A stretch of 46,941 nucleotides of DNA from Ornithinimicrobium sp. (lineage in GTDB: Bacteria; Actinomycetota; Actinomycetes; Actinomycetales; Dermatophilaceae), in the NCBI RefSeq assembly GCF_030537745.1, contig NZ_JAUNVI010000018.1, forward strand, positions 1 through 46,941. The letters run 5' to 3'. A program made the translations under genes and the position numbers. Below the pieces are notes generated by a model that ran no database searches, was not told where the DNA came from, and was given only the letters and a program-made list of their open reading frames with translations. Shown in pieces: positions 17,237-36,023 of the stretch. Within the stretch, counting starts at the first letter, position 1, and each line of letters opens with the position of its first letter.

Positions 17237-18040
17237 ATGAGTCCACGCGGCAGGGGCGTCCGGGGTAGACAGCTGGCGAGTGCCGGCGACCCCGAGCACA
17301 GCGCTACGACGACCGTCCCGGGTCGGATGATGCGGCCACGTCTTTACGAGCAGATCGTGGAGGAGCTGCTCACCCATATCCGCCGGGAGAAGCTGCATGC
17401 CGGGGACAAGCTGCCTCCCGAGCGCGACCTCGCGCAGGCCCTCGGCGTGAGCCGCGCCTCCCTTGCCCAGGCCCTCGTCGCGCTGGAGGTCGTCGGTGTG
17501 CTGCAGGTCCGGCACGGCGAAGGGGCGGTGATCCTGGAGGCCGCGCCCCCCCATGGCGCGCTGCTCGCGGCGGTTCGTCAACATCAGGACACGCTGCCGG
17601 ACATCATCGACGCCCGGTCCGCACTGGAGGCCAAGCTGGCGTCGCTGGCGGCCCAACGCCACGTCCCGGAGGACATGCAGGCGATCGACGACGCGCTGGC
17701 GTTGATGGAGCGGCAGGTCAACAGCGGTGAGCGGGCCCTCGAGGGGGACCGCGCCTTCCACGAGGCGGTCACGCGCGCGGGGCACTCCCGGATCCTGGCG
17801 CGCCTGATGGGCGAGATCAGCTCCTTGATCCTGGAGACCCGGATCGAGTCGCTGTCACAGCACGGACGGCCTGCGGAGTCGCTGGAGCAGCATCGCCTGG
17901 TCGCGGAGGCGATCCGCTCCCGCGACGCGATGGGCGCCGCGATCGCGATGATCCGGCACATCGACACGGTGTCCGACGTCGCCTTCCTGCGGCCGTACGA
18001 AGAAGAGCAGGACATCGCGTCAGAGGCGGGCGTGGGATGA
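17237..18040 (+). CDS. FadR/GntR-family transcriptional regulator (FCD type)
   Basis: This 267-residue protein has an N-terminal winged helix (LYEQIVEELLTHI, LPPERDLAQALGVSRASLAQA, VLQVRHGEGAVI, residues about 35-100). An all-helical FCD effector domain follows (DIIDARSALEAKLASLAA, RAFHEAVTRAGHS, EQHRLVAEAIRSRD), with histidines that often hold a metal for organic-acid binding. The first 29 residues are basic and atypical, so translation may instead begin at the ATG near 17327. It is divergent from the CoA-transferase operon with two candidate operators between, so it probably represses that operon and itself. It is coupled by ATGA to the next gene. Confidence 0.9.
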   Translation: MSPRGRGVRGRQLASAGDPEHSATTTVPGRMMRPRLYEQIVEELLTHIRREKLHAGDKLPPERDLAQALGVSRASLAQALVALEVVGVLQVRHGEGAVILEAAPPHGALLAAVRQHQDTLPDIIDARSALEAKLASLAAQRHVPEDMQAIDDALALMERQVNSGERALEGDRAFHEAVTRAGHSRILARLMGEISSLILETRIESLSQHGRPAESLEQHRLVAEAIRSRDAMGAAIAMIRHIDTVSDVAFLRPYEEEQDIASEAGVG

Positions 18041-18738
18041 CTCACCGTGCGGCCGACAACCTGGACCTGCTGGACCACGAGAGCGCCAAGCTCCTGACCA
18101 CGGTCGAGGGTTTGACGACGCAAGACCTCGCGAGGGCGACCCTGTGCACAGGGTGGACGGTCGGGCACGTCCTGACCCACTTGTCCCGCAACGCAGAGGC
18201 GCTGCTCAACCTGGTGCGCTGGGCCGTCGACGGCCAGGAGCGAGACTCCTACGCCTCGGATGCGGCCAGGACGGACGACATCGAGGCCGGCGCGGGCCGG
18301 CCACTGCAGGACATCGTGAGCGACCTCCGCTCCAGCGGGGAGCGTTTTCGACAGGAGGCCGAGCAGTTGCGCGGCCCGGCCGGCGAAGCCACCGTCCTCA
18401 GCCGCCTCGGGACGCCGGTCACCGGGGCTCAGGTCATCGCGATGCGCAGCCTGGAAGTCGTCTTCCACCACGTCGACCTCCGCGTCGGCTACACCTTCGA
18501 CGACGCCGATCCCGCATGGGTGGCACGCACCATGCGCGGCGGGGCCAGGCGCTGGGACGCGCTCCCGCAGGCTCCCGGACTCACCCTGCGGCCGAGCGGA
18601 CTGGCGCCTATGGACATCGGCGGAGGCGGGTCAGCGGTCAGCGGCACGGCGGGTGCCCTGCTGCTCTGGCTGGCCCGAGGTCGGGCCGATGGTCTGAGCA
18701 GCGAGGCAGAGCTGCCCTCCCCGCCGCCCTGGGCCTGA
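18037..18738 (+). CDS. Maleylpyruvate isomerase-like mycothiol-dependent enzyme
   Basis: The 233-residue protein is a DinB-fold enzyme with His48 (HVLTHLSRNAEAL), Glu140 and His144 (RSLEVVFHHVDLRVGY). The spacing matches the zinc triad of mycothiol-dependent maleylpyruvate isomerase. A C-terminal SCP2-like part follows (LRPSGLAPMDIGGGG). Family members isomerise or modify small electrophiles with mycothiol. The ATG overlaps the regulator stop (ATGA), so it belongs to the regulator operon and probably to the same carboxylate pathway; the actual substrate is unknown. Confidence 0.85.
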   Translation: MTHRAADNLDLLDHESAKLLTTVEGLTTQDLARATLCTGWTVGHVLTHLSRNAEALLNLVRWAVDGQERDSYASDAARTDDIEAGAGRPLQDIVSDLRSSGERFRQEAEQLRGPAGEATVLSRLGTPVTGAQVIAMRSLEVVFHHVDLRVGYTFDDADPAWVARTMRGGARRWDALPQAPGLTLRPSGLAPMDIGGGGSAVSGTAGALLLWLARGRADGLSSEAELPSPPPWA

Positions 18739-20834: not shown

Positions 20835-20865
20835 TTGGGAGCAGGCTCAGAACCTCACGTAAACT
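20835..20865 (+). promoter_or_regulatory. Promoter of the aldolase-like gene
   Basis: A TTGGGA (20835-20840) and TAAACT (20860-20865) pair with a 19-base spacer precedes the DUF6986-like gene. The -10 hexamer ends 10 bases before the GGAA arm of the candidate operator, the same geometry as at the uricase, hyi and iclR promoters. Confidence 0.5.
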
Positions 20866-20875
20866 TCCGAGAAGT

Positions 20876-20889
20876 GGAAAATAACATCC
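20876..20889 (+). promoter_or_regulatory. Candidate IclR-type purine operator 1 (half-degenerate)
   Basis: GGAAAATAACATCC matches the regulon palindrome GGAA-N6-TTCC with one mismatch in the right arm. It lies between the probable -10 and the start of the aldolase-like gene, so it would act as a repressor site. Confidence 0.5.
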
Positions 20890-20914
20890 ATGAAACGGAA
20901 AGTCAGGAGTGTCC

Positions 20915-22207
20915 ATGTCATCAGCACCACACCCCAGCTCGACGACGACCCCCACCGACTCGCCCACCGACTCGCTCGTCGCTGAGCTCACGGCTGACCT
21001 GGATCAGCGGCTGGAGGCTGCCGATGCAGATCTAGTCAGCCAGTTCCCCGGGGATGTCGCCAGCCGCCAGCCGATCCACACGGTCTATATCCCGGCGGAC
21101 CGCTATGCCGACGACGTCGTGGCGCTCTGGGGCCAGCAGGCCCAGGCCGCGCTCACCGAGCACCACGACCTGCTTGCCGGCCTGCTCGGCGAAGACGTCG
21201 CGAAGGAGGTGCTGCCGCTGGTTGCCGCCAAGCTGGCGAGCGAGCCGATCGAAGACCTGCGGATCGACTTCGAGGACGGCTTCGGCGACCGGGGTGACGA
21301 GGCTGAGGACGTCGCCGTCGCCACCGCCAGCGCCGCCCTGGCCCGCTCGCAGCAAGGCGGCACCTGCCCGCCCTTCACCGGGATTCGGTTCAAGTCGTTC
21401 GAAGCGCCGACGCGGGCGCGCGGCATCCGAACCCTGACCACCTTTATCGGGGGCCTGCTGCACTCGGGTGGGAGCCTGGAGGGGTTCGTGGTCACCTTCC
21501 CCAAGGTGACCAGCGTCGACCAGGTCGAGGCGATGGTCCACGCCTGCGACCGCATCGAAGAGGCCCTCGGGCTGCCGACGGGGTCGATCCGTTATGAGAT
21601 TCAGGTAGAGACTCCGCAATCGATCCTCGGTCCCGACGGCTCCGCGCTCGTGGCTCGGATGATCCATGCCAGTGCTGGGCGGGCTACCGCGCTGCACTAC
21701 GGGACGTATGACTACTCCGCGTTCTGCGGGATCCCGGCGCCCTACCAATCGATGGAGCACCCCGTCGCCGACCAGGCCAAACTGGTCATGCAGGCTGCGG
21801 CGGCGGGCACGGGCGTCCGCCTCTCCGACGGCTCGACCAATATCCTGCCCATCGGCTCGCCGGAGGAGGTCCGCACCGGTTATGCCCTGCACCTGCGGCT
21901 GGTCCGGCGCTCGCTGGAGCGCGGCTACTACCAGGGGTGGGACCTGCACCCCGCGCAATTGCCCAGCCGGTTCGCGGCCACCTACGCGTTCTACCGGGAG
22001 AACTTCGCTCCAGCCGCGCTGCGGCTGCGCAACTATTTGTCCAAGGCGCAAGGCAGTGTCATGGACGAGCCGGCGACTGCTCGCACACTGGCTGACCTCG
22101 TCGTGCGTGGCTTGGACTGCGGCGCCTTGCTGGCTGAGGAGGTGCAGGAGGCCACGGGAGCGGAAGCGCAGACCTTGATCGATTTGGCTCGCCCTCTCAG
22201 GGTGTGA
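20915..22207 (+). CDS. Uncharacterised CitE/HpcH-like aldolase (DUF6986-like) of the purine regulon
   Basis: This 430-residue protein shows features of the phosphoenolpyruvate/CitE-HpcH aldolase superfamily: DLRIDFEDGFGDRGDEAED (acidic metal region, near residues 115-135), YEIQVETPQSILG (metal Glu region), and GWDLHPAQLPSRFAATYAFYR. It is shorter than malate synthases and has no obvious CoA lyase name. I believe it is the DUF6986 family seen in actinobacterial purine clusters, with no established reaction. ATG at 20915 has AGGAG 5 bases upstream. It is the first gene of the purine block and has a regulon-type operator. Condensation of glyoxylate or another C2/C3 keto acid is an inference only. 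Confidence 0.75.
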   Translation: MSSAPHPSSTTTPTDSPTDSLVAELTADLDQRLEAADADLVSQFPGDVASRQPIHTVYIPADRYADDVVALWGQQAQAALTEHHDLLAGLLGEDVAKEVLPLVAAKLASEPIEDLRIDFEDGFGDRGDEAEDVAVATASAALARSQQGGTCPPFTGIRFKSFEAPTRARGIRTLTTFIGGLLHSGGSLEGFVVTFPKVTSVDQVEAMVHACDRIEEALGLPTGSIRYEIQVETPQSILGPDGSALVARMIHASAGRATALHYGTYDYSAFCGIPAPYQSMEHPVADQAKLVMQAAAAGTGVRLSDGSTNILPIGSPEEVRTGYALHLRLVRRSLERGYYQGWDLHPAQLPSRFAATYAFYRENFAPAALRLRNYLSKAQGSVMDEPATARTLADLVVRGLDCGALLAEEVQEATGAEAQTLIDLARPLRV

Positions 22208-22239
22208 CCAAATCGATGTGGGGAATTGTGGCCAAGGCC

Positions 22240-22269
22240 TTGACGGCGGCCCACGATTGCCCCTAGTCT
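22240..22269 (+). promoter_or_regulatory. Promoter of the uricase operon
   Basis: TTGACG (22240-22245) and TAGTCT (22264-22269) with an 18-base spacer form a good sigma-70-type promoter. The same TTGACG-N18 layout occurs before hyi. Confidence 0.6.
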
Positions 22270-22280
22270 TCCAACATCCG

Positions 22281-22293
22281 GGAAAGTAATTCC
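22281..22293 (+). promoter_or_regulatory. Candidate IclR-type purine operator 2 (uricase)
   Basis: GGAAAGTAATTCC is a clean GGAA-N5-TTCC palindrome starting 11 bases after the -10 hexamer, over the expected transcription start. It fits the general IclR-family operator shape (TGGAA-N-TTCCA type). Confidence 0.7.
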
Positions 22294-22370
22294 ACATCGC
22301 GGACAACACACCACCACACAGACAGTGAAGTCTCACCGCGGAGGCGAGCTGTCGAAGGAGCGTGAACCAG

Positions 22371-23279
22371 ATGGCCATCGTCCTCGGGACCAACAGGTAC
22401 GGCAAGTCCGAGAACCGCGTCGTGCGGATCAACAAAGACACCGACCGTCACGAGATCCGCGACATGAATGTCTCCACTTCCCTCTACGGCGACTTCGAGG
22501 AGGCGCACACCTCCGGGGACCAGGCCAACATCCTGCCGACGGACACGCAGAAGAACACGTCCTTCGTCTTTGCCAAGACCGTGGGAGTCAGCTCCATCGA
22601 GGAGTACGCCCAGGCTCTCGGCAAGCACTTCCTGGAGGCGGCCCCGCCAGCCACCCGTTCGCAGATCCGTGTCCAGGAGTACGCCTGGGACCGGATCGTC
22701 GTGGACGGCCAGGAGCACGACCACAGCTGGGTCCGCCGTGGCACCGAGACCCGCACCGCCGTGGTGACCGTGGAGGGACGTGGCGACGACCAGCAGGTCT
22801 GGGTCCTCTCCGGGCTGGAGGACCTCACCGTCCTCAAGTCCAGCGGGTCCGAGTTCCAGGGCTACCTCAAGGATCAGTACACGACCCTGAAGGAGACCAC
22901 CGACCGCGTCATGGCCACCTCGCTCACCGCTCGGTGGCGCTGGAGCGACACCGAGGGCGTCGACTTCAACGCGGTCTACGACTCGGTCAAGGCGCTGTGC
23001 CTGGCAGCTTTCGCCCGGCACTACAGCAAGGCCCTGCAGAACACCCTGTTCGTCATGGGCCAGGACGTCCTCGAGGCGCACCCGCAGATCGCCGAGATCC
23101 GCTTCTCCGCACCCAACAAGCACCACTTCGACTACGACTTGGGTCAGTTCGGGCTGGAGAACAACAACGAGGTCTTCATCGCGGCCGACCGTCCGTACGG
23201 CTTGATCGAAGCCACCGTGACCCGCGACGACGCAGCCGAGGCTGGGCTGGCGTGGCAGGACGCCCGCAGCTTCGTCTGA
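22371..23279 (+). CDS. uox: Urate oxidase (uricase)
   Basis: The 302-residue protein is a tunnelling-fold urate oxidase. It has GTNRYGKSENRVVRI with the active-site lysine near residue 12, ILPTDTQKNTSFVFAK with the partner threonine, SGSEFQGYLKDQYTTL (substrate-binding Phe/Arg region) and APNKHHFDYDL with the catalytic histidine. It oxidises urate with O2 to 5-hydroxyisourate plus H2O2 without a cofactor. ATG at 22371 is preferred to GTG at 22362 because AAGGAG lies 10 bases before it. It is first in a uox, OHCU decarboxylase, HIUase unit, so both later steps to (S)-allantoin are encoded in order of need. Confidence 0.96.
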   Translation: MAIVLGTNRYGKSENRVVRINKDTDRHEIRDMNVSTSLYGDFEEAHTSGDQANILPTDTQKNTSFVFAKTVGVSSIEEYAQALGKHFLEAAPPATRSQIRVQEYAWDRIVVDGQEHDHSWVRRGTETRTAVVTVEGRGDDQQVWVLSGLEDLTVLKSSGSEFQGYLKDQYTTLKETTDRVMATSLTARWRWSDTEGVDFNAVYDSVKALCLAAFARHYSKALQNTLFVMGQDVLEAHPQIAEIRFSAPNKHHFDYDLGQFGLENNNEVFIAADRPYGLIEATVTRDDAAEAGLAWQDARSFV

Positions 23280-23321
23280 GGGCTAGCACGACACCGTTCA
23301 ACGCACACCGAGGAAGGCCAG

Positions 23322-23816
23322 ATGTCCGGACAGTTCCAGGATTTCAATGCTCTCGATGACGGGCAGGCACGCCGCCTCCTCGCGAGTTGCCTCGATGTGC
23401 CGCGATGGGTCGAGGAGGTCAACGCGGGTCGACCCTATGCCGACCGTGCCAGCCTTCTCGCTGCCGCCGACGCGTCGGCGCGCACCCTGAGCCCGGAGGA
23501 GTTGGACGCCGCACTGGCGGGCCACCCTCGGATCGGGGAGCGCGCCGGCGCCGGTCACAATGCCACGGCGTCCTCCCGGGAGCAGGCCGGGGTCGACGCG
23601 CGCGATGACGAGGTGGTGGCCCGGCTCGCGGACGGCAACGCCGCCTACGAGCAGCGCTTCGACCGGGTCTTTCTGATCCGCGCCGCAGGACGGTCCGGGG
23701 AGGACATCCTCGCCGAGCTGGAGCGGCGCCTGCGTCACGACGACGACACCGAGCGTGCCGAGGTCGTCGACAACCTCCGGGAGATCACTCTCCTCCGACT
23801 CGAACAGGCTGTGTAA
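23322..23816 (+). CDS. uraD: 2-oxo-4-hydroxy-4-carboxy-5-ureidoimidazoline (OHCU) decarboxylase
   Basis: The 164-residue all-helical protein has the family motif LAGHPRIGERAG, with catalytic His68 and Glu73, followed by SSREQAGV and a C-terminal LRHDDDTERAEVVDNLREIT block. It decarboxylates OHCU to give (S)-allantoin stereospecifically. GAGGAAGG sits just before the ATG. It lies between uricase and HIU hydrolase, 42 bases after the first and 6 before the second, and is clearly in the same operon. Confidence 0.95.
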   Translation: MSGQFQDFNALDDGQARRLLASCLDVPRWVEEVNAGRPYADRASLLAAADASARTLSPEELDAALAGHPRIGERAGAGHNATASSREQAGVDARDDEVVARLADGNAAYEQRFDRVFLIRAAGRSGEDILAELERRLRHDDDTERAEVVDNLREITLLRLEQAV

Positions 23817-23822
23817 GCACCT

Positions 23823-24149
23823 ATGGCAACTCTGTCCACCCACGTCCTCGACACCTCCCTGGGCCGCCCCGCCGAAGGTGTCGCCATCGTGCTGACCACA
23901 GTGGCCGGCGAGGAGCTCGGCTCGGGGGCGACCAACGCCGACGGTCGGATCGGGCGGATCGGTCCCGAAGAGCTGCCGGCCGGTGACTACGTGCTGACCT
24001 TCGCCACCGGTGCCTACTACCTCGCCACCGGGCAGCAGGGCTTCTATCCCAGCGCCTCGGTGACCTTCACCGTGGCGGAGGGCAGCGAGCACTACCACGT
24101 GCCGCTCGTGCTTAACCCGTTCGCCTACTCCACCTACCGGGGCAGCTGA
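23823..24149 (+). CDS. uraH: 5-Hydroxyisourate hydrolase (transthyretin-like)
   Basis: The 108-residue protein shows the TLP signature STHVLDTSLGRPAEGV (His7), an internal NADGRIGRIG with the active-site arginine, HYHVPLVLNPFAYSTYRGS and the diagnostic C-terminal YRGS tetrapeptide. It hydrolyses 5-hydroxyisourate to OHCU. It lacks a strong ribosome-binding site and starts 6 bases after the OHCU decarboxylase stop, so it is probably translated by coupling. It is the last gene of this three-gene unit before the next promoter. Confidence 0.96.
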   Translation: MATLSTHVLDTSLGRPAEGVAIVLTTVAGEELGSGATNADGRIGRIGPEELPAGDYVLTFATGAYYLATGQQGFYPSASVTFTVAEGSEHYHVPLVLNPFAYSTYRGS

Positions 24150-24179
24150 ACTCCTGCGTGCACGGTGACGGGTCGCGGC

Positions 24180-24209
24180 TTGACGCGGCGACTACTTCTT
24201 CCCTACACT
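24180..24209 (+). promoter_or_regulatory. Promoter of the hyi operon
   Basis: TTGACG (24180-24185) and TACACT (24204-24209) with an 18-base spacer. The layout is nearly the same as at the uricase promoter, with a regulon operator directly downstream. Confidence 0.6.
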
Positions 24210-24219
24210 CTCACATAAC

Positions 24220-24233
24220 GGAAACATATTTCC
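24220..24233 (+). promoter_or_regulatory. Candidate IclR-type purine operator 3 (hyi)
   Basis: GGAAACATATTTCC is a perfect 5-base-arm palindrome (GGAAA-N4-TTTCC), the best copy of the motif in the window. It begins 10 bases after the -10 hexamer. Confidence 0.75.
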
Positions 24234-24282
24234 ACGATGTGAAAACTCGAGACTGACGACGAACCAGTGAAAGGCAGATCCC

Positions 24283-25110
24283 ATGAGCGACCAGCCACAC
24301 ACCCTGCGCTATCTGGCCAACTGCTCGATGCTCTTCACCGAGGAGCCGCTGCTGGAGCGGCCGCGCGCCGCTGCCGCGGCAGGCTTCACGGCGATCGAGT
24401 TCTGGTGGCCCTGGCCGGACAACCCCACGCCTTCGCAGGAAGAGATCGACGCCTTCGTCACCGCCGTGGATGATTCCGGTGTGCAGCTCGTCGGGCTCAA
24501 CTTCTTCGCCGGTGAGCTGACTGGGCCGGTGGATGCGGGTGTGCTGTCGATCCCCGCGCGGTCACAGCAGTTCCGCGACAACATCCCCGTCGCAGTAGGC
24601 ATCGGGGAACGGCTCGGCGTCCAGGCCTTCAATGCGCTGTATGGCGTGCGGGTGGATGACTCCACGCCCCAGGAGCAGGACGCGCTAGCCCTCGAGAACC
24701 TCGGCTTGGCCGCGGAGGCGGCAGCCCGCATCGGCGCCACCGTCCTCGTGGAGCCGGTCAGCGGTCCCAAGCCCTACGCCCTGCGGACTGCCGCCGACAC
24801 GATCGCCGTGGTCGACGCGGTCCGGGCCGCCGGCCACGACAACGTCGGCTTCCTCAACGACCTCTTCCACCTGGCCAACAACGGCGACGACCCCGCCGCC
24901 GCGGTCGCGGCCCACACCGATAAGACGGCGCACGTGCAGATCGCGGACTACCCCGGCCGCGGCGAGCCCGGCACCGGCGAGCTGGACCTGGACGCGCTCC
25001 TGGCCCAGCTTCAGGAGCAGGGCTACGACGGCTACGTCGGCCTGGAGTACAAGCCGACCACCACCACCACCGACTCCCTAGCCTGGCTGCCTACCGCCCG
25101 CCGGGCCTGA
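24283..25110 (+). CDS. hyi: Hydroxypyruvate isomerase
   Basis: This 275-residue xylose-isomerase-like TIM barrel starts LRYLANCSMLFTEEPLLERP and has GFTAIEFWWPWP, VLVEPVSGPKPYALRTA, VGFLNDLFHLANNGDD and YVGLEYKPT. The two glutamates in VEPVSG and GLEYKP fit the catalytic metal ligands of Hyi. It interconverts hydroxypyruvate and tartronate semialdehyde. GAAAGG precedes the ATG. It heads the hyi, glxR, gcl order found in glyoxylate (glycerate pathway) operons. Confidence 0.92.
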   Translation: MSDQPHTLRYLANCSMLFTEEPLLERPRAAAAAGFTAIEFWWPWPDNPTPSQEEIDAFVTAVDDSGVQLVGLNFFAGELTGPVDAGVLSIPARSQQFRDNIPVAVGIGERLGVQAFNALYGVRVDDSTPQEQDALALENLGLAAEAAARIGATVLVEPVSGPKPYALRTAADTIAVVDAVRAAGHDNVGFLNDLFHLANNGDDPAAAVAAHTDKTAHVQIADYPGRGEPGTGELDLDALLAQLQEQGYDGYVGLEYKPTTTTTDSLAWLPTARRA

Positions 25111-25139
25111 CCACCGACCCCCTCGCAAGGAGACCTTCA

Positions 25140-26018
25140 ATGGCACGCATCGCCTTCATCGGCCTCGGCATCATGGGCAGCCCCATGGCCGTCCACCTGC
25201 AGAACGCCGGCCACGACGTCGTCGGCTACAACCCCAGCCCCGAGAAGACTCGGCCGCTCGTGGACGCCGGCGGCACGGCCGCGGAGAGCACCGCGGACGC
25301 CGTCAAGGACGCCGAGGTCATCGCCGTCATGGTCCCGGACTCCCCGGACGTCGAGGACGTCCTGATCAACGGGATCTTCGGCAACGCCCCCGAGGGTGCG
25401 CTCATCATCGACTTCTCCAGCATCCGCCCCGACGTGACGACCGCCTTGGCCAAGCAGGCCATCGAGCGCGGCTACCGCATCCTGGATGCCCCGGTGTCCG
25501 GTGGTGAGGCCGGCGCGGTCAACGCCAAGCTCTCGATCATGGTCGGCGGCAGCGCCGAGGACTTCGCCGAAGTCGAGGACATCTTCACCACGGTCGGCAA
25601 GACTGTCGTGCACGTCGGTCCGAACGGCGCCGGCCAGACGGTCAAGGCTGCCAACCAGCTCATCGTCGCCACCAACATCCAGGCGGTCGCCGAGGCCCTG
25701 ATCTTCCTCGAGGCCTATGGCGTCGACACCGAAGCAGCACTGACCGTGCTCGGCGGCGGCCTCGCCGGCTCGGCCGCCCTGGAGCAGAAGAAGCAGAACA
25801 TGCTCACCCGCTCGTTCGAGCCGGGCTTCCGCATCGACCTGCACCACAAGGACATGGGCATCGTCACCTCCGCCGCCCGCGAGGCCGGCGTGGTGCTGCC
25901 CGTCGGTGCGCTCATGGCCCAGCTGATGGCCTCTGCACGCGCCAACGGTGACGGTGGCCTCGACCACTCCGGGCTGCTGCGGGGCGTCGAGCGTCTCAGC
26001 GGTCAGACCCCGGCCTGA
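25140..26018 (+). CDS. glxR: 2-Hydroxy-3-oxopropionate (tartronate semialdehyde) reductase
   Basis: The 292-residue beta-hydroxyacid dehydrogenase has the NAD(P) Rossmann motif [18 protein letters not shown], the substrate-binding [11 protein letters not shown] (Ser120) and the catalytic lysine (Lys169) in [11 protein letters not shown]. It reduces tartronate semialdehyde to D-glycerate. AAGGAG lies 7 bases before the ATG. It stands between hyi and gcl, 29 bases after the former, so its substrate is made by its neighbours. A glycerate kinase is not in the window. Confidence 0.95.
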
Positions 26019-26065
26019 CGCACACCTTCCCCCCTACCCGCTCCCGTCCCATCGAGGAGCACCCA

Positions 26066-26085
26066 ATGCAATTCAAGGAGACGAC

Positions 26086-26095
<10 letters not shown>
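26066..26095 (+). CDS. Possible 9-codon leader ORF overlapping the gcl start
   Basis: ATG at 26066 with GAGGAG 6 bases upstream opens a frame reading MQFKETTWR and a TGA at 26093-26095. It overlaps the gcl start (26086) by 10 bases, and its stop forms TGATG with the fourth codon of gcl. This arrangement could couple or tune gcl translation. It is too short to judge as a protein and may be fortuitous. Confidence 0.3.
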
Positions 26096-27864
<1,769 letters not shown>

Positions 27865-27952
27865 GACCCGGTATGACGTCGGGCGCGCCAGCAGGCACGG
27901 ACGTGGCGACCTGGTCGACCGTGTCGTCACCGAAAGAGGCACGATAGACCCC

Positions 27953-29314
27953 ATGGACGATCCCCTGCGCAACACCGCCGAGCTGGACCTGCTGGTCCGC
28001 GCCCCACGAGCCATTGTCGCCGGTCAGGAGCAAGCCGTGGCCGTCGGCGTCAAGGACGGCCGCATCGTGACGGTCGCGCCCCTGGACGCCGACCTCTCGG
28101 CGACCCAGGTCATCGAGCTCGCTCCCGACGAGGTCCTCCTCCCTGGGCTGGTCGACACGCATGTGCACGTCAACGAGCCAGGTCGGACCGAGTGGGAGGG
28201 CTTCGCCTCCGCCACCCGTGCCGCGGCGGCCGGCGGCGTGACCACGATCATCGACATGCCACTCAACTCCATCCCCTCGACTGTCACGCTCGCGGCGCTG
28301 CGCGAGAAGCAGGAGGTGGCGCGGGACCAGGTCAGCGTCGACGTCGGCTTCTGGGGCGGCGCCGTCCCGGACCACCTCGGTGACCTAGAGGCGCTGCACG
28401 AGGCGGGCGTCTTCGGCTTCAAGTGCTTCTTGGCAGACTCCGGCGTCGAGGAGTTTCGACACCTGGAGCCGGAGCAGTTCACCGAGGCGATGACCGAGAC
28501 CGCTCGGATCGGGGCGCTCATGATCGTGCACGCCGAGGACTCTGGTGCGTTGGCCGCGTCCACCCCGGCGGCGGGCGTCGGCTACCGGGACTTCCTTGCC
28601 TCCCGACCCACCCAGGCCGAGGACATCGCCGTGCAGCGCGTCATCGACGAGGCGCGCCGCACCGGGGGACGTGCCCACATCCTGCACCTGTCGGCGGCGG
28701 ACGCGCTGCCGGCCCTGAAGGCGGCGCGTGCCGAAGGCATCGACCTCTCGATCGAGACCTGCCCTCACTACCTCTCGCTCTGCGCCGAGGACATCCCCGA
28801 TGGTGCCACGCAGTTCAAATGCTGCCCGCCGATCCGCGAGCACGACAACCAGGACCAGCTGTGGGCGGGCCTGGTGGACGGCGACATCGACATGATCGTG
28901 ACCGACCACAGCCCTTCGACCGCAGATCTCAAGCATTTTGAGACCGGCGACTTCGGCACCGCCTGGGGCGGCATCGCCTCGGTCCAGCTGGGGCTCGCTG
29001 CCGTGTGGAATGAGGCGCGCGGGCGCGGCATACCTCTCACGAGTGTCGTCTCGTGGATGGCGACCGCCCCCGCCGACCGGGTCGGGCTGACCCACAAGGG
29101 TCGGATCGAGATCGGCGCTGACGCCGACCTCGTCGTCTTCGCGCCCGAGGAGGAATGGGACGTCGACGTCGCCAAGCTCAAGCACAAGAACCCCGTCTCC
29201 GCCTATGCCGACCGCCACCTGACGGGCAAGGTCCGCCAAACCTGGCTCCGCGGGACCCTGATCACCGACGATGGCGCGCCGTTCGGCGCCTTCCTTCAGA
29301 GAGGACAGTCATGA
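27953..29314 (+). CDS. allB: Allantoinase
   Basis: This 453-residue cyclic amidohydrolase has the binuclear metal site: LVDTHVHVNEPG (His70, His72), GFKCFLADSG with the carbamylated Lys157, IVHAED (His193), HILHLS (His245) and VTDHSP (Asp318). The first motif and the SIETCPHYL and FKCCPPIR blocks distinguish it from dihydroorotase. It opens (S)-allantoin to allantoate. No good ribosome-binding site precedes ATG 27953; a GATAGA hexamer close upstream could drive a leaderless transcript. It is coupled to allE by ATGA. Confidence 0.95.
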   Translation: MDDPLRNTAELDLLVRAPRAIVAGQEQAVAVGVKDGRIVTVAPLDADLSATQVIELAPDEVLLPGLVDTHVHVNEPGRTEWEGFASATRAAAAGGVTTIIDMPLNSIPSTVTLAALREKQEVARDQVSVDVGFWGGAVPDHLGDLEALHEAGVFGFKCFLADSGVEEFRHLEPEQFTEAMTETARIGALMIVHAEDSGALAASTPAAGVGYRDFLASRPTQAEDIAVQRVIDEARRTGGRAHILHLSAADALPALKAARAEGIDLSIETCPHYLSLCAEDIPDGATQFKCCPPIREHDNQDQLWAGLVDGDIDMIVTDHSPSTADLKHFETGDFGTAWGGIASVQLGLAAVWNEARGRGIPLTSVVSWMATAPADRVGLTHKGRIEIGADADLVVFAPEEEWDVDVAKLKHKNPVSAYADRHLTGKVRQTWLRGTLITDDGAPFGAFLQRGQS

Positions 29315-30147
29315 GCACCACGCCCGCACCGCGGCGCTTCGCCACCCCCCCGGGAGGTCTGCCACCGCAGACCCAGCTCACCACCGACCGGGCGGTGTTC
29401 ACGGAGGCCTACGCCGTCCTCCCGCACGGGACGATGACCGACATCGTCACCAGCCTGCTGCCCTTCTGGGACGACACCCGGCTGTGGACGATCGCGCGGC
29501 CGTTGTCCGGCTTTGCCGAGACGTTCTCGCAGTATGTCGTCGAGGTCGCCCCCGGCGGCGGCTCCGACCGGCCCGAGCTCAATGAAGGCGCAGAGGGCGT
29601 GATCTTCGTCGTCGGGGGTGCGCTCACCCTCACCCTCGACGGCACCGACCACGAGCTGGCCGAGGGTGGCTACGCCTACCTCCCCCCCGCCGCTGACTGG
29701 ACGTTGCACAACACCAGCTCGGAGGTCGCGACCTTCCACTGGATCCGCAAGGCCTACGAGGTCGTCGACGGCCTGGACGTGCCGGAGGCGTTCGTCACCA
29801 ACGAGGCTGACGTCGTGGCCGTGGAGATGCCCGGCACGAACGGCGCCTGGGCCACGCAACGCTTCGCGGACCCCAACGACGTCCGACACGACATGCACGT
29901 CAACATCGTGAACTTCGAGCCCGGTGGCGCGATCCCCTTCCCCGAGACGCACGTCATGGAGCACGGCCTCTATGTGCTCGAGGGCAAGGCCGTCTACCTG
30001 CTCAACGACGACTGGGTCGAGGTCCAGGCCGGCGACTTCATGTGGCTGCGGGCCTTCTGTCCCCAGGCCTGCTACGCCGGCGGTCCCGGCCGGTTCCGCT
30101 ACCTGCTCTACAAGGACGTCAACCGGCACGCCAAGCTGCCCTACTGA
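29311..30147 (+). CDS. allE: (S)-Ureidoglycine aminohydrolase (bicupin)
   Basis: The 278-residue protein has two cupin domains. The C-terminal one carries the metal site (HVMEHGLYVLEGKAVYLLN, GDFMWLRAFCPQACYAGG) as in plant and bacterial UGlyAH; the N-terminal one is structural (NEGAEGVIFVVGGALTLTL). It releases ammonia from ureidoglycine to form (S)-ureidoglycolate. The start overlaps the allantoinase stop (ATGA). Its presence implies an allantoate amidohydrolase elsewhere, since ureidoglycine is that enzyme's product, and none is seen in this window. Confidence 0.93.
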   Translation: MSTTPAPRRFATPPGGLPPQTQLTTDRAVFTEAYAVLPHGTMTDIVTSLLPFWDDTRLWTIARPLSGFAETFSQYVVEVAPGGGSDRPELNEGAEGVIFVVGGALTLTLDGTDHELAEGGYAYLPPAADWTLHNTSSEVATFHWIRKAYEVVDGLDVPEAFVTNEADVVAVEMPGTNGAWATQRFADPNDVRHDMHVNIVNFEPGGAIPFPETHVMEHGLYVLEGKAVYLLNDDWVEVQAGDFMWLRAFCPQACYAGGPGRFRYLLYKDVNRHAKLPY

Positions 30148-30161
30148 CCAACTTTCACCAA

Positions 30162-30179
30162 GCGGAAGTCATTTTCCGC
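30162..30179 (+). promoter_or_regulatory. Candidate IclR-type purine operator 4 (xdh)
   Basis: GCGGAA-N6-TTCCGC is a perfect 6-base-arm inverted repeat containing the regulon core GGAAGTCATTTTCC. Its relation to the promoter differs from the other sites: a TTCCTC-N17-TAACCT pair (30187-30215) lies just downstream of it, and no convincing -10 is seen before it. Confidence 0.65.
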
Positions 30180-30186
30180 AAACTTC

Positions 30187-30215
30187 TTCCTCAATCGATC
30201 TGGGTGGCGTAACCT
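30187..30215 (+). promoter_or_regulatory. Tentative xdh promoter
   Basis: TTCCTC (30187-30192) and TAACCT (30210-30215) with a 17-base spacer are the best hexamer pair before xdhA; the -35 is poor. A start near 30222 would give an untranslated leader of about 115 bases. Confidence 0.3.
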
Positions 30216-30281
30216 GTCCAGAGAGCACCGAGGATTGTCGTTCGCCTGGACAACCGGCAATCTGGAGACACGAACCAGGAT

Positions 30282-30324
30282 CCCAGCGGCCAGCGCCGGC
30301 CGCCGGGACGAGCCCCGCCCGGGG
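30282..30324 (+). other. Two hairpins in the xdh leader, before the ribosome-binding site
   Basis: CCC-A-GCGGCC pairs with GGCCGC-C-GGG (30282-30307, 6-base loop, one mismatch), then CCCC (313-316) pairs with GGGG (321-324). The second hairpin ends just 2-3 bases before the GGAG ribosome-binding site at 30327-30330. This could be a translation-control leader or simply GC-rich sequence. It matches no riboswitch I can name. Confidence 0.4.
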
Positions 30325-30337
30325 TAGGAGTGAGAGC

Positions 30338-31845
30338 ATGACAGTAGAGACCTCCGAACACATCGCCAGGCTGACGGTGAACGGCAAGGACGCCTCCATG
30401 GCGGACGCGACACCGCATACGACGGCTCTGGACTGGTTACGTAACAAGGGGTTGACCGGCGCGAAGGAGGGTTGCGCGGAGGGCGAGTGCGGGGCCTGCG
30501 CGATCATGGTCGCCCGCCCCAGCGCGACCCCCGGGGTGGAGACCGAGTGGGTCTCGATCAACTCCTGCCTGGTCCCCGTGGCAGCCCTGGACGGACAGGA
30601 GATCGTGACCGCCGAAGGCTTGGGCACGCCCACAGACCTGCACCCGGTCCAGCAGGAGATGGCAGACCGGGGCGGATCGCAGTGCGGCTACTGCACGCCA
30701 GGATTCGTCACCTCGATGGCGGCCGAGTACTACCGGTGGGGGCGCGGCACCAAGAACGACCCCCTGCAGATCGGCTCGCGGCCCGCAGCGCCTGCGGACG
30801 CGCACGCCGGTGATGCCGAGCACGGGCCTAACGGCTTCGACCTGCATTCGCTGTCCGGCAACCTGTGCCGCTGCACCGGCTATCGCCCGATCCGGGATGC
30901 GGCCTATGCCCTCGGGGCGCCGCCGGAGGGCGATCCCTTCGAGGCGCGCCTGCATCAGCCCGCTCCCGGCCCCGCCGCGACGCGGATCCTCGCCGATGGC
31001 GCCGAGTTCGTCCGTCCCGCGAGCCTGGACGAGCTCCTCGAGCTGCTCGCCGCGCGTCCCGAGGCCATGCTCCTAGCCGGCTCGACGGACGTCGGAGTCG
31101 AGCTCAACATCCGCGGTTCAAGGCCCCCGTTGGTCGTCGCCATCGACCGTCTCCAGGAGCTGCGCGACTTCGAGGTCGGGCCGGAGGAGGTCCGGATCGG
31201 CGCCGCGCTGACGTTCTCCGAGATCGAAAAACTTCTGGACGGGCGTGTCCCCGTGCTGGATGAACTGTTCCCGCAGTTTGCCTCCCGGTTGATCCGCAAC
31301 TCCGGCACGATCGGCGGCAACTTGGGGACTGCCTCGCCGATCGGAGACTCCCCACCTGTGCTGTTGGCGTTAGAGGCCTCGTTGCTTCTGGCTGGGCAGG
31401 GTGGCGAACGTCTCGTCCCGCTCGCTGATTACTTCACCGGTTACCGCCAGTCCGTGCGGGCGCCGGAGGAGCTCATCAAGGAGATCCGGATCCCGCTGCC
31501 CATCGCCCCGATCACCGCCTTCCACAAGATCGCCAAGCGCCGCTTCGACGACATCTCCAGCGTCGCGGTCGGCTTCGCCCTGGACATCGTCGACGGTCGG
31601 GTCGCCGAGGCCCGGATCGGGCTGGGCGGGGTGGCCGCCACCCCCATCCGTGCCCTGAAGACCGAAGCTGCCCTGGAAGGAACTGACTGGACCCAGGAGA
31701 GCGTCGCCGCTGCGGCCGCGATCCTCGGGGCCGAAGGCACCCCCATGTCGGACCACCGGGCCAGCGCCCCCTACCGCGCCGCCATGCTCGAGCAGTCTCT
31801 GCTCAAGCTCTACGCCAAGACCCTCACCCTCGAGGAGAACGCCTC

Positions 31846-31849
<4 letters not shown>
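30338..31849 (+). CDS. xdhA: Xanthine dehydrogenase small subunit XdhA (2x[2Fe-2S], FAD)
   Basis: This 503-residue protein has the plant-type [2Fe-2S] motif CAEGECGAC plus Cys77 (Cys46, 51, 54, 77). The second cluster is CGYCTPGF and NLCRCTGY (Cys116, 119, 177, 179), and the FAD domain includes RNSGTIGGNLGTASPIGDSP. It passes electrons from the Mo subunit to NAD+. Between Cys119 and Cys177 lie 57 residues, about 26 more than is usual, including a Pro/Ala/Asp-rich insert (about 136-167). AGGAG lies before ATG 30338. The stop overlaps the xdhB start (ATGA). Confidence 0.95.
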
Positions 31850-34290
<2,441 letters not shown>

Positions 34291-34292
34291 GC

Positions 34293-35120
34293 ATGTTGTG
34301 GCTTCGAGCGGTGGAGATGCTGCGCTCCCAGCGGCAGCCTGGCGTGCTGGTCACCGTCACGGCGGTGCGCGGCCATTCCCCACGCCACGCGGGCGCCAAG
34401 ATGGTCGTCGGAGAGCACGACACCTGGGACTCGGTCGGCGGCGGCAACCTGGAGATGGTCGCGATCCAACGCGCCCGCGCGCTGCTCGCGCAGGACGCTC
34501 CGGCCCCGGTCACGATCTCCTCGCAGCTCTCTGACAAGGCGCCCTACGAGCACGGGGTGCAGTGCTGCGGTGGCGTCGTGACGATGCTCCTGGAGCCGCT
34601 GCACGTGACGCCGGTGGTGGCCATCTTCGGGATGGGTCACGTCGGGCACGAGCTGGCGCGGATCCTGGCGCGGCACGACCTGGATCTGCACCTGGTCGAC
34701 ACCCGTCCCGAGCAGTTGGCCGAGGCAATGATGGGGCCCTATGCGGACGCGGACGCCCGCATCCACAGCCATCAGATGCCGGTGCTGCCGGAGTTGGTGC
34801 TGGGGGGCCTCCCGGCGGGCACGCACATCCTGGTGATGACGCACGACCACGCCGAGGACTACGCCATCGTCGACGCCGCGCTGCGCACCGAGGGCCTCGG
34901 CTCGATCGGCCTGATCGGGTCTTCGGCGAAGTGGTCTCGGTTCCGGTCTCGGCTGCTCCGCGAGGGTGGCTTCGACCTCGAGGCGCTGGAGCGCGTGAGG
35001 ACGCCGATCGGGCTCCCCACCGTGACCAGCAAGGAGCCGGCTGCGATCGCGGTCGGGGTCGCGGCCGACCTCCTTGGCACGTTCGCGCACCAACGCCTGA
35101 GTGCTGCACATTCGGGCTAA
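34293..35120 (+). CDS. xdhC: Xanthine dehydrogenase accessory protein XdhC
   Basis: The 275-residue protein has the XdhC N-terminal domain (VLVTVTAVRGHSPRHAGAKM, GGGNLEMVAIQRAR, GVQCCGGVV with the CCGG motif near residue 91) and a C-terminal Rossmann fold (VAIFGMGHVGHELARIL, SIGLIGSSAKWSRF). In known systems XdhC binds the molybdenum cofactor, adds the essential sulfido ligand with a cysteine desulfurase and inserts it into XdhB. Start ATG 34293 is 2 bases after the xdhB stop, so it is coupled. It is the last gene of the xdh unit. Confidence 0.94.
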   Translation: MLWLRAVEMLRSQRQPGVLVTVTAVRGHSPRHAGAKMVVGEHDTWDSVGGGNLEMVAIQRARALLAQDAPAPVTISSQLSDKAPYEHGVQCCGGVVTMLLEPLHVTPVVAIFGMGHVGHELARILARHDLDLHLVDTRPEQLAEAMMGPYADADARIHSHQMPVLPELVLGGLPAGTHILVMTHDHAEDYAIVDAALRTEGLGSIGLIGSSAKWSRFRSRLLREGGFDLEALERVRTPIGLPTVTSKEPAAIAVGVAADLLGTFAHQRLSAAHSG

Positions 35121-35145
35121 GGCGATCTTCCGCGGCCACGTGGCG

Positions 35146-35151
35146 TAGACT
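35146..35151 (+). promoter_or_regulatory. -10 element of the iclR-type regulator gene
   Basis: TAGACT ends 10 bases before the GGAA arm of the operator, the same spacing as at the uricase, hyi and aldolase promoters. No convincing -35 is seen 17-18 bases upstream. A TTGACA at 35177-35182 has no good partner -10. Confidence 0.4.
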
Positions 35152-35174
35152 TCCGTCATACGGAAAATCATTCC
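35151..35174 (+). promoter_or_regulatory. Compound operator 5 before the IclR-family gene
   Basis: Two palindromes overlap here: TTCCGT-N3-ACGGAA (35151-35165, perfect) and GGAAAATCATTCC (35162-35174, GGAA-N5-TTCC). The second matches the motif upstream of the purine operons, so the regulator gene is likely autoregulated. The overlap could let two dimers compete or cooperate. Confidence 0.65.
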
Positions 35175-35213
35175 CGTTGACAGCGCGTCTTGTGCTCGAT
35201 GGAAGGTTAGGTC

Positions 35214-36023
35214 ATGTCAGCAACAACCACCACCAGTCCCGTCAATGGCAAGACTGGTGGTCGTTCGGGAGGTGTCCAATCCCTGGAGCGTGCCTTCCAC
35301 ATCCTGGAGGCCATGGCCGACTCGGGCGGCATCATCGGGTTGTCCCAGCTGGCGGACAAGGTCGATCTCCCGCTCGCGACGATCCACCGCCTGGTCCGCA
35401 GCCTCGTTGACCTCGGCTACGTCCGCCAGGAAGCCAACCGGCAGTACTCCCTCGGGCCACGTCTGATGCGGCTAGCCGCGGAGTCCGGCAAGCGCATCGG
35501 AGCGCTCGCCAAACCGTTGCTGACGGAGGCGGTAGAGGCCCTCGACGAATCGGTGAACCTGGCCATCCTCGACGACGACGAGATCGTCTACGTCGCTCAG
35601 GTGCAGCCCTCACGCAACTTCATGCGCATGTTCACCGAGGTCGGCCGCCGCACCACACCGCACAGCACGGCGGTCGGCAAGGCTATCCTCGCCTCCAGCG
35701 ACGACGTCGACGTCGTCGCGCTGCTCGAGCGCACCGGGATGCCCCGGCGGACCGAGCACACCCTCACCACTGCCGAAGAGTTCCTCACCGTGCTCCGTGC
35801 TACCCGGGCTCGTGGTTTCGCCATGGACGAGGGTGAGCAGGAGGTCGGCGTCCGGTGCGTGGCGGTCGCGGTGCCCGGCGCACCCCGCCCGATGGCGCTG
35901 TCCATGTCAGGGCCGACCACCCGGATGGATGATGCCACGGTCGAGCGAGGGGCCAAGGTGCTCAGAGAAGTGGCAGCCAAGCTCGCCAAGGAGCTCGGCG
36001 CCAACGACCTCATCATCGCCTGA
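35214..36023 (+). CDS. IclR-family regulator of the purine regulon (AllR-like)
   Basis: The 269-residue protein has an N-terminal winged helix (GGVQSLERAFHILEAMAD, LSQLADKVDLPLATIHRLVRSL, YVRQEANRQYSLGPRLM, residues about 18-85). An IclR effector domain follows (NLAILDDDEIVYVAQVQPS, RRTTPHSTAVGKAILAS, GFAMDEGEQEVGVRCVAVAV). Family members such as E. coli AllR bind glyoxylate or allantoate-linked ligands. Its position after xdhC and the palindrome shared with all purine units make it the obvious regulator, probably a repressor since the sites overlap transcription starts. An AAGG-rich sequence lies 10 bases before the ATG. Confidence 0.93.
   Translation: MSATTTTSPVNGKTGGRSGGVQSLERAFHILEAMADSGGIIGLSQLADKVDLPLATIHRLVRSLVDLGYVRQEANRQYSLGPRLMRLAAESGKRIGALAKPLLTEAVEALDESVNLAILDDDEIVYVAQVQPSRNFMRMFTEVGRRTTPHSTAVGKAILASSDDVDVVALLERTGMPRRTEHTLTTAEEFLTVLRATRARGFAMDEGEQEVGVRCVAVAVPGAPRPMALSMSGPTTRMDDATVERGAKVLREVAAKLAKELGANDLIIA

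Follow-up and report, generated by a model that had tools for sequence, protein, structure and literature searches.

Promoter-coupled half-site arrays predict an AllR-like IclR-family regulon for purine breakdown and glyoxylate use in Ornithinimicrobium sp.

Background

The closest described counterparts of the system studied here are IclR-family repressors of allantoin and glyoxylate genes, among them AllR of Streptomyces coelicolor (Navone 2015, AEM 81:6649, as cited in PMC12772271) and AllR and IclR of E. coli. The present subject is a set of predicted operators in a purine-degradation gene block of Ornithinimicrobium sp., on contig NZ_JAUNVI010000018.1 of a genome that totals 3.03 Mb; the whole stretch that was analysed, 46,941 nt long, is called the window. 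The block lies wholly on the + strand and holds genes for DUF6986, uricase, OHCU decarboxylase, 5-hydroxyisourate (HIU) hydrolase, hyi, glxR, gcl, allB, allE, xdhA, xdhB, xdhC and an IclR-family protein. Five sites within it are probably operators of that protein (35214-36023), which would be an actinobacterial AllR-like regulator.

In S. coelicolor, the AllR regulon reportedly covers the allantoin-to-glycerate part of the pathway, and allantoate or glyoxylate reportedly releases AllR from DNA. The Ornithinimicrobium protein would likewise be an IclR-family repressor of allantoin genes, a likeness drawn through homologues beside allB in genus g73 and about 2.9 kb from it in Streptomyces sp. 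BHT-5-2. It differs in that uricase, xanthine dehydrogenase and a xanthine permease are also predicted to be in the regulon, the scope of AllR being taken as reported. PMC12772271 cites Streptomyces AllR as an IclR-family regulator known for allantoin genes.

The two E. coli proteins are glyoxylate-linked IclR-family repressors, AllR acting at gcl and allS-allA and IclR at aceBAK, the malate synthase operon (PMC11323563). Their sites have GGAA...TTCC cores with an N5 spacer (PMC8222616, Table 1), whereas the spacer here is N6, and the proteins themselves share just 29% and 34% identity with the window protein and differ from it in several pocket residues. The window protein has both domains of the family (PF09339, HTH_IclR, 59.5 bits; PF01614, IclR_C, 132.4 bits; both above cut-off), and scores below the equivalog cut-offs of E. 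coli AllR (NF007548, 93.2 bits vs 406) and E. coli IclR (NF008601, 140.6 bits vs 380). Its best NCBIfam model is the equivalog of BhcR from Paracoccus denitrificans (NF045644, 170.2 bits), though it falls under the curated cut-off of 350; BhcR is glyoxylate-responsive and controls the beta-hydroxyaspartate cycle (PMC11323563).

The operator architecture also has precedents. According to PMC8222616, the group 1 consensus of the family is TTYCRYW3RYGRAA, so that TTYC-N7-GRAA is a group 1 box; GGAA-N6-TTCC resembles group 2; operators with three alternating boxes occur; and tandem sites 18-22 nt apart (mostly 19-21) are read there as tetramer sites. The sites described below share the group 1 consensus, the alternating boxes and the tandem spacing, but have up to four regular half-sites, are locked to the promoter and are repeated over one pathway. 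The orthologous group of the window protein may already be in the supplementary tables of that paper. A full-text literature search, with most subscription papers outside its scope, found no title or abstract describing an actinobacterial IclR regulon with uricase, xanthine dehydrogenase, xanthine permease and glyoxylate genes together. The type of regulator (AllR/IclR), tandem boxes and three-box operators are already known; the regulon predicted here is wider, and its reach would be unusually complete.

Results

Two IclR-family boxes in register with the promoter

The operators, their register with the promoters, their conservation and their co-occurrence with the regulator can be read directly from the DNA. 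The element is TTYC-N7-GGAA-N6-TTCC-N7-GRAA, that is, two 15-bp boxes of the IclR family, spaced 21 bp apart and held in a constant register with the promoter. The original prediction had taken GGAA-N5/6-TTCC as the whole operator, and this palindrome turned out to be the middle of the longer element. Operators were scored as matches out of the 16 positions of the four-half-site pattern over 36 bp, and each upstream segment was shuffled 200 times. The five sites in the window are as follows.

20865..20900, + strand: predicted operator of the DUF6986 gene; box 1 20865-20879 (TTCCGAGAAGTGGAA), box 2 20886-20900 (ATCCATGAAACGGAA); 15/16, reached by 0/200 shuffles
22269..22304, + strand: predicted operator of the uricase operon; 14/16, 0/200 shuffles
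24209..24244, + strand: predicted operator of the hyi operon; box 2 (24230-24244) perfect; 15/16, 0/200 shuffles
30153..30177, + strand: predicted operator before xdhA; perfect box 1 30153-30167 (TTTCACCAAGCGGAA) and half-site TTCC 30174-30177; 12/16, 5/200 shuffles
35151..35175, + strand: predicted operator of iclR; perfect box 1 35151-35165 (TTCCGTCATACGGAA) and half-site TCCC 35172-35175; 12/16, 4/200 shuffles

With the site of an unlinked xanthine permease gene, described below, these make up the six own sites. Counting an outer half-site as present when at least 3 of its 4 letters match, TTYC stands at gap 7 before GGAA in 6/6 own sites and 13/16 non-redundant sites of relatives, and GRAA stands at gap 7 after TTCC in 4/6 and 11/16, respectively. 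Perfect TTYCRYNNNRYGRAA boxes, which fit the group 1 consensus as given in PMC8222616, were found at hyi, xdhA and iclR. The palindrome centres are 21 bp apart, within the tandem range of 18-22 nt, at DUF6986, uricase, hyi and the xanthine permease (1-2 mismatches in 16); at xdhA and iclR the second box is merely a half-site.

The central palindrome was also considered as the dimer site and set aside. The sample was 22 sites: the 6 own sites and 16 of 20 sites from relatives, four near-identical Nocardioides rows (L005, L006, L007, L009) being left out. The group 2 CA..TG letters C, A, T and G occur in 0, 10, 8 and 2 of the 22 N6 spacers. The N7 spacers agree better with group 1 RY...RY (R 18, Y 14, R 15 and Y 21 of 22 in the first; R 21, Y 18, R 15 and Y 18 in the second), which favours group 1 boxes as the dimer units and does not prove it.

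The palindromes at uricase, hyi, xdh and iclR are exact, as originally listed; the fifth, at 20876-20889 before DUF6986 (GGAAAATAACATCC), has one mismatch, with ATCC in place of TTCC in its right half. The listed mixture of N5 and N6 spacers is probably a single N6 register with single mismatches. Both exact N5 sites read as N6 with one mismatch each (uricase GGGAAAGTAATTCC, 22280-22293; iclR GGAAAATCATTCCC, 35162-35175), and in relatives 20/24 of the N6 palindromes but 2/4 of the N5 ones lie upstream of pathway genes, so N6 is preferred. Searched with spacers from N4 to N8, the window has five GGAA/TTCC palindromes, at 18453, 22281, 24220, 30164 and 35162. Dinucleotide shuffles of the window average 1.32, and 1/100 reached 5. 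The one at 18453-18466 (N6), absent from the earlier list, lies inside a coding open reading frame (ORF) of the MDMPI_N family (mycothiol maleylpyruvate isomerase-like) and is probably there by chance.

The promoter elements in register with these sites are the following.

20860..20865, + strand: -10 TAAACT of the DUF6986 promoter (sequence inspection, composite scan)
22240..22245, + strand: -35 TTGACG of the uricase promoter, N18 before the -10
22264..22269, + strand: -10 TAGTCT of the uricase promoter (sequence inspection, composite scan)
24180..24185, + strand: -35 TTGACG of the hyi promoter, N18 before the -10
24204..24209, + strand: -10 TACACT of the hyi promoter (sequence inspection, composite scan)
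35146..35151, + strand: -10 TAGACT of the iclR promoter (sequence inspection, composite scan)

All four -10 hexamers are where they had been reported, as is the TTGACG-N18 arrangement common to uricase (22240) and hyi (24180). The gap from -10 to GGAA, given earlier as 10-11 bases, measures 10, 11, 10 and 10, and becomes 10 at all four promoters when the spacer is read uniformly as N6. The xdh site had been singled out as lacking this spacing, and it does: CCAACT stands at the same offset, with the final T kept and the TA lost. TTGAC -35 elements occur at 3/6 own promoters.

Genome-wide scans

The bare palindrome GGAA-N4-7-TTCC occurs 55 times in the 3.03 Mb, against 149 for the same letters read backwards. 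Four of the 55 fall within the 14.3-kb span that had been claimed (binomial 1.4e-4), a figure that is descriptive because the span was drawn around the sites. Coupling the palindrome to the promoter gives a sharper picture. The composite pattern TANNNT-N10-GGAA-N6-TTCC, with at most 1 mismatch, gave 9 matches at 8 places on both strands, with 5 for a reversed-pattern control. Four of the places are the DUF6986, uricase, hyi and iclR promoters (binomial 6e-8, again for a span drawn around the sites and a spacing taken from these promoters). Since the spacing came from them, these four are not independent evidence; the fifth match, the xanthine permease, is. Two further matches (C26 and C86:17982) were set aside as lying inside or at the edge of reading frames.

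The full four-half-site pattern with at most 1 mismatch found the xanthine permease, DUF6986 and hyi only, and 2 mismatches added uricase among others. Perfect single boxes occur at 9 places in the genome (control 3): at hyi, xdhA, iclR and the permease, upstream of an IclR paralogue, before malate synthase A, and at three places in or overlapping reading frames. The suggested check of motif frequency elsewhere in the genome thus came out in favour of the proposed regulon, the promoter-coupled form being concentrated at the block genes (4/8 places).

Conservation in relatives

The loci of relatives were picked by their IclR homologue, and they are not a neutral test of which regulator binds. 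Across 837,542 bases around such homologues, 20/24 distinct exact GGAA-N6-TTCC sites lie upstream of pathway genes. These regions make up 5.8% of the bases searched, and the binomial value is 2e-21, with sites that are not all independent. Spacers other than N5 and N6 gave 0 or 1 pathway-upstream site, and the 23 further palindromes of like composition (two strong, two weak letters) gave at most 3.

Scores of at least 12/16 were found in relatives before hyi (7/7, leaving out the row of L045, an artefact in which the gene is cut by the locus end), iclR (19/27), the OHCU decarboxylase gene (10/15), xdhA (5/12), DUF6986 (2/12) and uricase (1/11). Near-identical Nocardioides loci supply 6 of the 10 OHCU matches and 6 of the 19 iclR matches; without four of these loci the counts are 6/11 and 15/23. 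Some iclR sites double as those of a divergent gene next to them (in L008, DUF6986; in other cases, malate synthase). The genes allB, allE, gcl, glxR and HIU hydrolase, which are usually internal to operons in relatives, had 0/57 scores of at least 12/16, and 8/8 non-leading genes of the window score at background.

In 10 IclR-positive genomes the composite motif gave 14 matches at 11 places (reversed control 7). Pathway genes follow at 8 of these 11 places: hyi in five genomes, OHCU decarboxylase in two and an NCS2 permease in one. At another the motif stands before a universal stress gene that has an NCS1 permease gene after it, and two look unrelated (L104, L106). The idea of a single regulon was borne out in these respects: the promoter-coupled motif clusters at the block genes, it also found an unlinked xanthine permease, and it is kept before the same operons in relatives.

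The IclR protein and its homologues

A close homologue of the IclR protein was taken as a match at E 1e-40, and a genome with no match at that cut-off as IclR-negative. Among 59 genomes of the family, own genome included, 21 have uricase, 27 have a close IclR homologue and 20 have both; the homologue is therefore present in 20/21 uricase genomes and in 7/38 of the others. At class level, 41/148 genomes have a homologue at E 1e-45. Of 28 class loci, 16 have a site scoring at least 13 within 1.5 kb of iclR and outside its frame. Both the co-occurrence with uricase and these iclR-upstream sites agree with the earlier assignment of the motif to the IclR protein.

In genus g73, whose genomes measure 7.1-9.9 Mb, a 53-55% identical homologue lies beside allB in 10/10 fetched loci, and the best score between iclR and allB is 14-15 in 8 loci and 13 in 2. 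Streptomyces sp. BHT-5-2 has a 56% identical protein about 2.9 kb from allB and a 13/16 site upstream of its iclR. In Rhodococcus pseudokoreensis a 51% identical IclR lies near gcl-glxR-hyi and glycolate-oxidase-type genes, with a 13/16 site before hyi; a 15/16 site also lies between an FCD-type regulator gene and an Nramp transporter gene. On an Arthrobacter plasmid with a 51% identical IclR, no site of at least 13 was found in 16.7 kb.

The recognition helix of most homologues resembles LPxPTIHRxxRTLV, and that of the window protein is LPLATIHRLVRSLV. D212, S239 and S241, the oxygen-binding ligand residues of E. coli IclR, are kept in the window protein and in most homologues. These residues, the genomic linkage and the association with malate synthase point to a glyoxylate-linked regulator and do not prove binding.

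Predicted targets outside the block

The earlier prediction had tied the purine block into one regulon. The block operons stand as predicted members, and the regulon is probably not confined to them. On another contig (C15:19088), TTGACA-N17-CACACT-N10-GGAAGTTCCCTTCC lies ahead of an NCS2 xanthine permease gene that is unlinked to the block and scores 504.9 bits against the xanthine permease model (cut-off 414.15). In this way a pattern derived from the block led to a likely pathway transporter elsewhere in the genome. An unlinked NCS2 permease gene of another genus (L103) carries the same element, 53 bp ahead of its ATG. Permease copies score at least 13 in 5/17 cases in IclR-positive genomes, where many others lie inside purine operons, and in 0/4 cases in IclR-negative ones.

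The evidence for malate synthase A as a member is weaker. A perfect IclR box ends 20 bp before its ATG (own contig C77:35035; L167 1536-1550), together with a partial half-site; the copy scores 12/16, which 5/200 shuffles reach. Malate synthase is present in 10/10 IclR-positive genomes, adjoining iclR in 5 of them, and in 1/10 IclR-negative genomes. Among the 10 primary copies in the positive genomes, 4 score 13, 3 score 12, 1 scores 11 and 2 do not rise above background. Two additional copies score 11 and 10, and the single IclR-negative copy scores 9.

Three other sites were seen. At C86:38033 (L085 2534), a malic enzyme gene has GGAATACTTTTTCC 41 bp ahead of its ATG, with no matching promoter register and poor flanking half-sites (3 mismatches). 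At C13:15679 of the own genome (L166 2180), TTTCACTATGTGAAA comes right after TTGACA, about 95 bp before another IclR-family gene, and may be the operator of a sibling regulator. In genome G030 (L105 1516, contig C57), the same promoter-operator layout precedes the universal stress protein gene, which has an NCS1-type permease gene after it.

Genes of the block

The genes of the block are listed below with the basis of each assignment.

20915..22207, + strand: DUF6986 gene, ATG at 20915; DUF6986 match of 551.7 bits
22371..23279, + strand: uricase (factor-independent urate hydroxylase); TIGR03383, 362 bits
23322..23816, + strand: OHCU decarboxylase; profile match
23823..24149, + strand: HIU hydrolase (HIUase); profile match
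24283..25110, + strand: hydroxypyruvate isomerase-like hyi; 253 bits, under the model cut-off of 353
25140..26018, + strand: tartronate semialdehyde reductase, glxR; profile match
26086..27864, + strand: glyoxylate carboligase, gcl; profile match
27953..29314, + strand: allantoinase, allB (likely start; ORF 27776-29314); profile match
29311..30147, + strand: (S)-ureidoglycine aminohydrolase, allE (likely start; ORF 29155-30147); profile match
30338..31849, + strand: xanthine dehydrogenase small subunit, xdhA (likely start; ORF 29924-31849); domain match
31846..34290, + strand: xanthine dehydrogenase large subunit, xdhB; domain match
34293..35120, + strand: xdhC (likely start; ORF 34074-35120); domain match
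35214..36023, + strand: IclR-family regulator, proposed binder of all the operators; profile and domain matches, homologue comparison

The allE product also fits the NCBIfam model of a bifunctional allantoicase/(S)-ureidoglycine aminohydrolase, and the annotated block genes showed no separate gene for allantoate hydrolysis.

DUF6986 weakly resembles HpcH/HpaI aldolases and malyl-CoA lyase and has a non-significant match to malate synthase G (E 0.38); because of these similarities it is suggested to be a glyoxylate-using enzyme. In many relatives its gene is found close to iclR or to purine genes, and the own copy has a strong operator.

Discussion

How the proposed mechanism would work

Each operator is made of three or four alternating half-sites, and where all four are present they would form two 15-bp boxes set 21 bp, or two helical turns, apart, a spacing that would suit a tetramer bound along a single face of the helix. 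The operator would run up to 36 bp downstream from the last base of the -10. Since the first half-site starts on that base, protein bound there would overlie the -10 end together with the start site and the first part of the transcribed region, and would act as a repressor. A product of purine degradation, glyoxylate or allantoate, would then release the regulator and induce the operons together, iclR included. We infer binding by this protein and its tetrameric form; repression, and not activation, is suggested by their position, and the candidate effectors by the family and the gene content.

The predicted regulon comprises DUF6986, uricase-OHCU-HIUase, hyi-glxR-gcl-allB-allE, xdhABC, iclR and the unlinked xanthine permease, with malate synthase A on weaker grounds. 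One nearby regulator would then probably switch the whole pathway, from xanthine uptake through purine breakdown to glyoxylate use.

Evidence against, and other explanations

A number of results weigh against this reading. The four-half-site scan with 2 mismatches also added two other places (C49 and C111), and with 3 mismatches it equalled its control (18 vs 17 places per strand). Many orthologous promoters score under 12, namely 10/11 for uricase (often not the leading gene), 10/12 for DUF6986, 7/12 for xdhA, 5/15 for OHCU decarboxylase and 8/27 for iclR. The stretch around a 74% identical IclR (L002) gave no site, and 12/28 class loci have no site of at least 13 within 1.5 kb of iclR, including 7/7 loci of genus g91 at 58-60% identity. 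The composite count in IclR-positive genomes (14) is just modestly above that in 10 IclR-negative genomes (5, reversed control 4). The glyoxylate/pyruvate pocket differs from that of E. coli IclR (G160A, A161V, L154T, L143F, L220V). The A and T of the -10 are found at the exact gap of 10 in 4/16 relative sites only, whereas TTGAC stands 38-41 bases before GGAA in 13/20 (9/16 without near-duplicates), which makes the promoter register general and the exact -10 gap local.

The own xdhA and iclR sites are also a weak point, lacking the fourth half-site, having 4 mismatches to the full pattern and being missed by the genome-wide four-half-site scan. They lend some credit to partial control, in which uricase, hyi, DUF6986 and the permease are genuinely controlled and the single boxes at xdhA and iclR are weak or incidental. 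That both sites have no second box, that the -10 at xdhA is poor and that few relatives have good xdhA sites (5/12 at 12 or above, 2/12 at 13 or above) fit such an arrangement. Each of the two nevertheless has a perfect box 1, of which the genome has only 9 (control 3), and the iclR upstream sites recur in 19/27 homologues (15/23 minus near-duplicates), partly shared with divergent genes, so that partial control seems unlikely, if a serious contender. It is less likely still that the protein works on the same operators mainly as an activator or in a dual role. The IclR family does include activators and dual regulators (PMC8222616), and a dual role has been proposed for BhcR, the best-scoring model though under cut-off (PMC11323563). 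The sites, however, extend downstream from the end of the -10, where bound protein would block polymerase, and the TTGAC -35 elements at three of the six own promoters also speak against activation.

Another regulator might bind the motif, for instance an IclR paralogue or the GntR/FCD protein encoded at 17237, with the adjacent iclR just one of its targets. The genome has five further IclR-family matches, and the paralogue on C13 (32% identical) has a fairly similar recognition helix and the box-like TTTCACTATGTGAAA about 95 bp before its frame. We consider this improbable: among the matches listed for L001-L014 and L045-L091, none at E 1e-10 is to the GntR protein, and the sole one listed later is 27% identical and in the Rhodococcus locus; the paralogues are at most 33% identical, and the best one (L093) has a different recognition helix; and in other families, too, such sites are found next to homologues of this IclR, at loci chosen by the IclR and so not neutral. 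Chance can be practically dismissed. AT-rich patches upstream of genes could yield GGAA/TTCC palindromes, and the simple palindrome does occur 55 times in the genome, but when the same upstream segments are dinucleotide-shuffled the observed scores are rarely reached, palindromes of matched composition lack a similar upstream enrichment, and starts that are usually operon-internal show none.

Significance

Predicted control by the adjacent AllR-like protein gives a complete actinobacterial route from purines to glyoxylate a regulon that can be tested. Prediction adds unlinked genes to it, the xanthine permease and, more weakly, malate synthase, and ties the uncharacterised DUF6986 family to the pathway. 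Together with the regulator gene, the regular four-half-site operators would serve well for asking which half-site pairing an IclR dimer uses, a question raised in PMC8222616. More speculatively, a widespread actinobacterial AllR-like family may read glyoxylate status through a promoter-locked 36-bp operator of four half-sites, and this lineage may have captured everything from xanthine uptake through malate synthase, including DUF6986 as an unrecognised glyoxylate-using enzyme.

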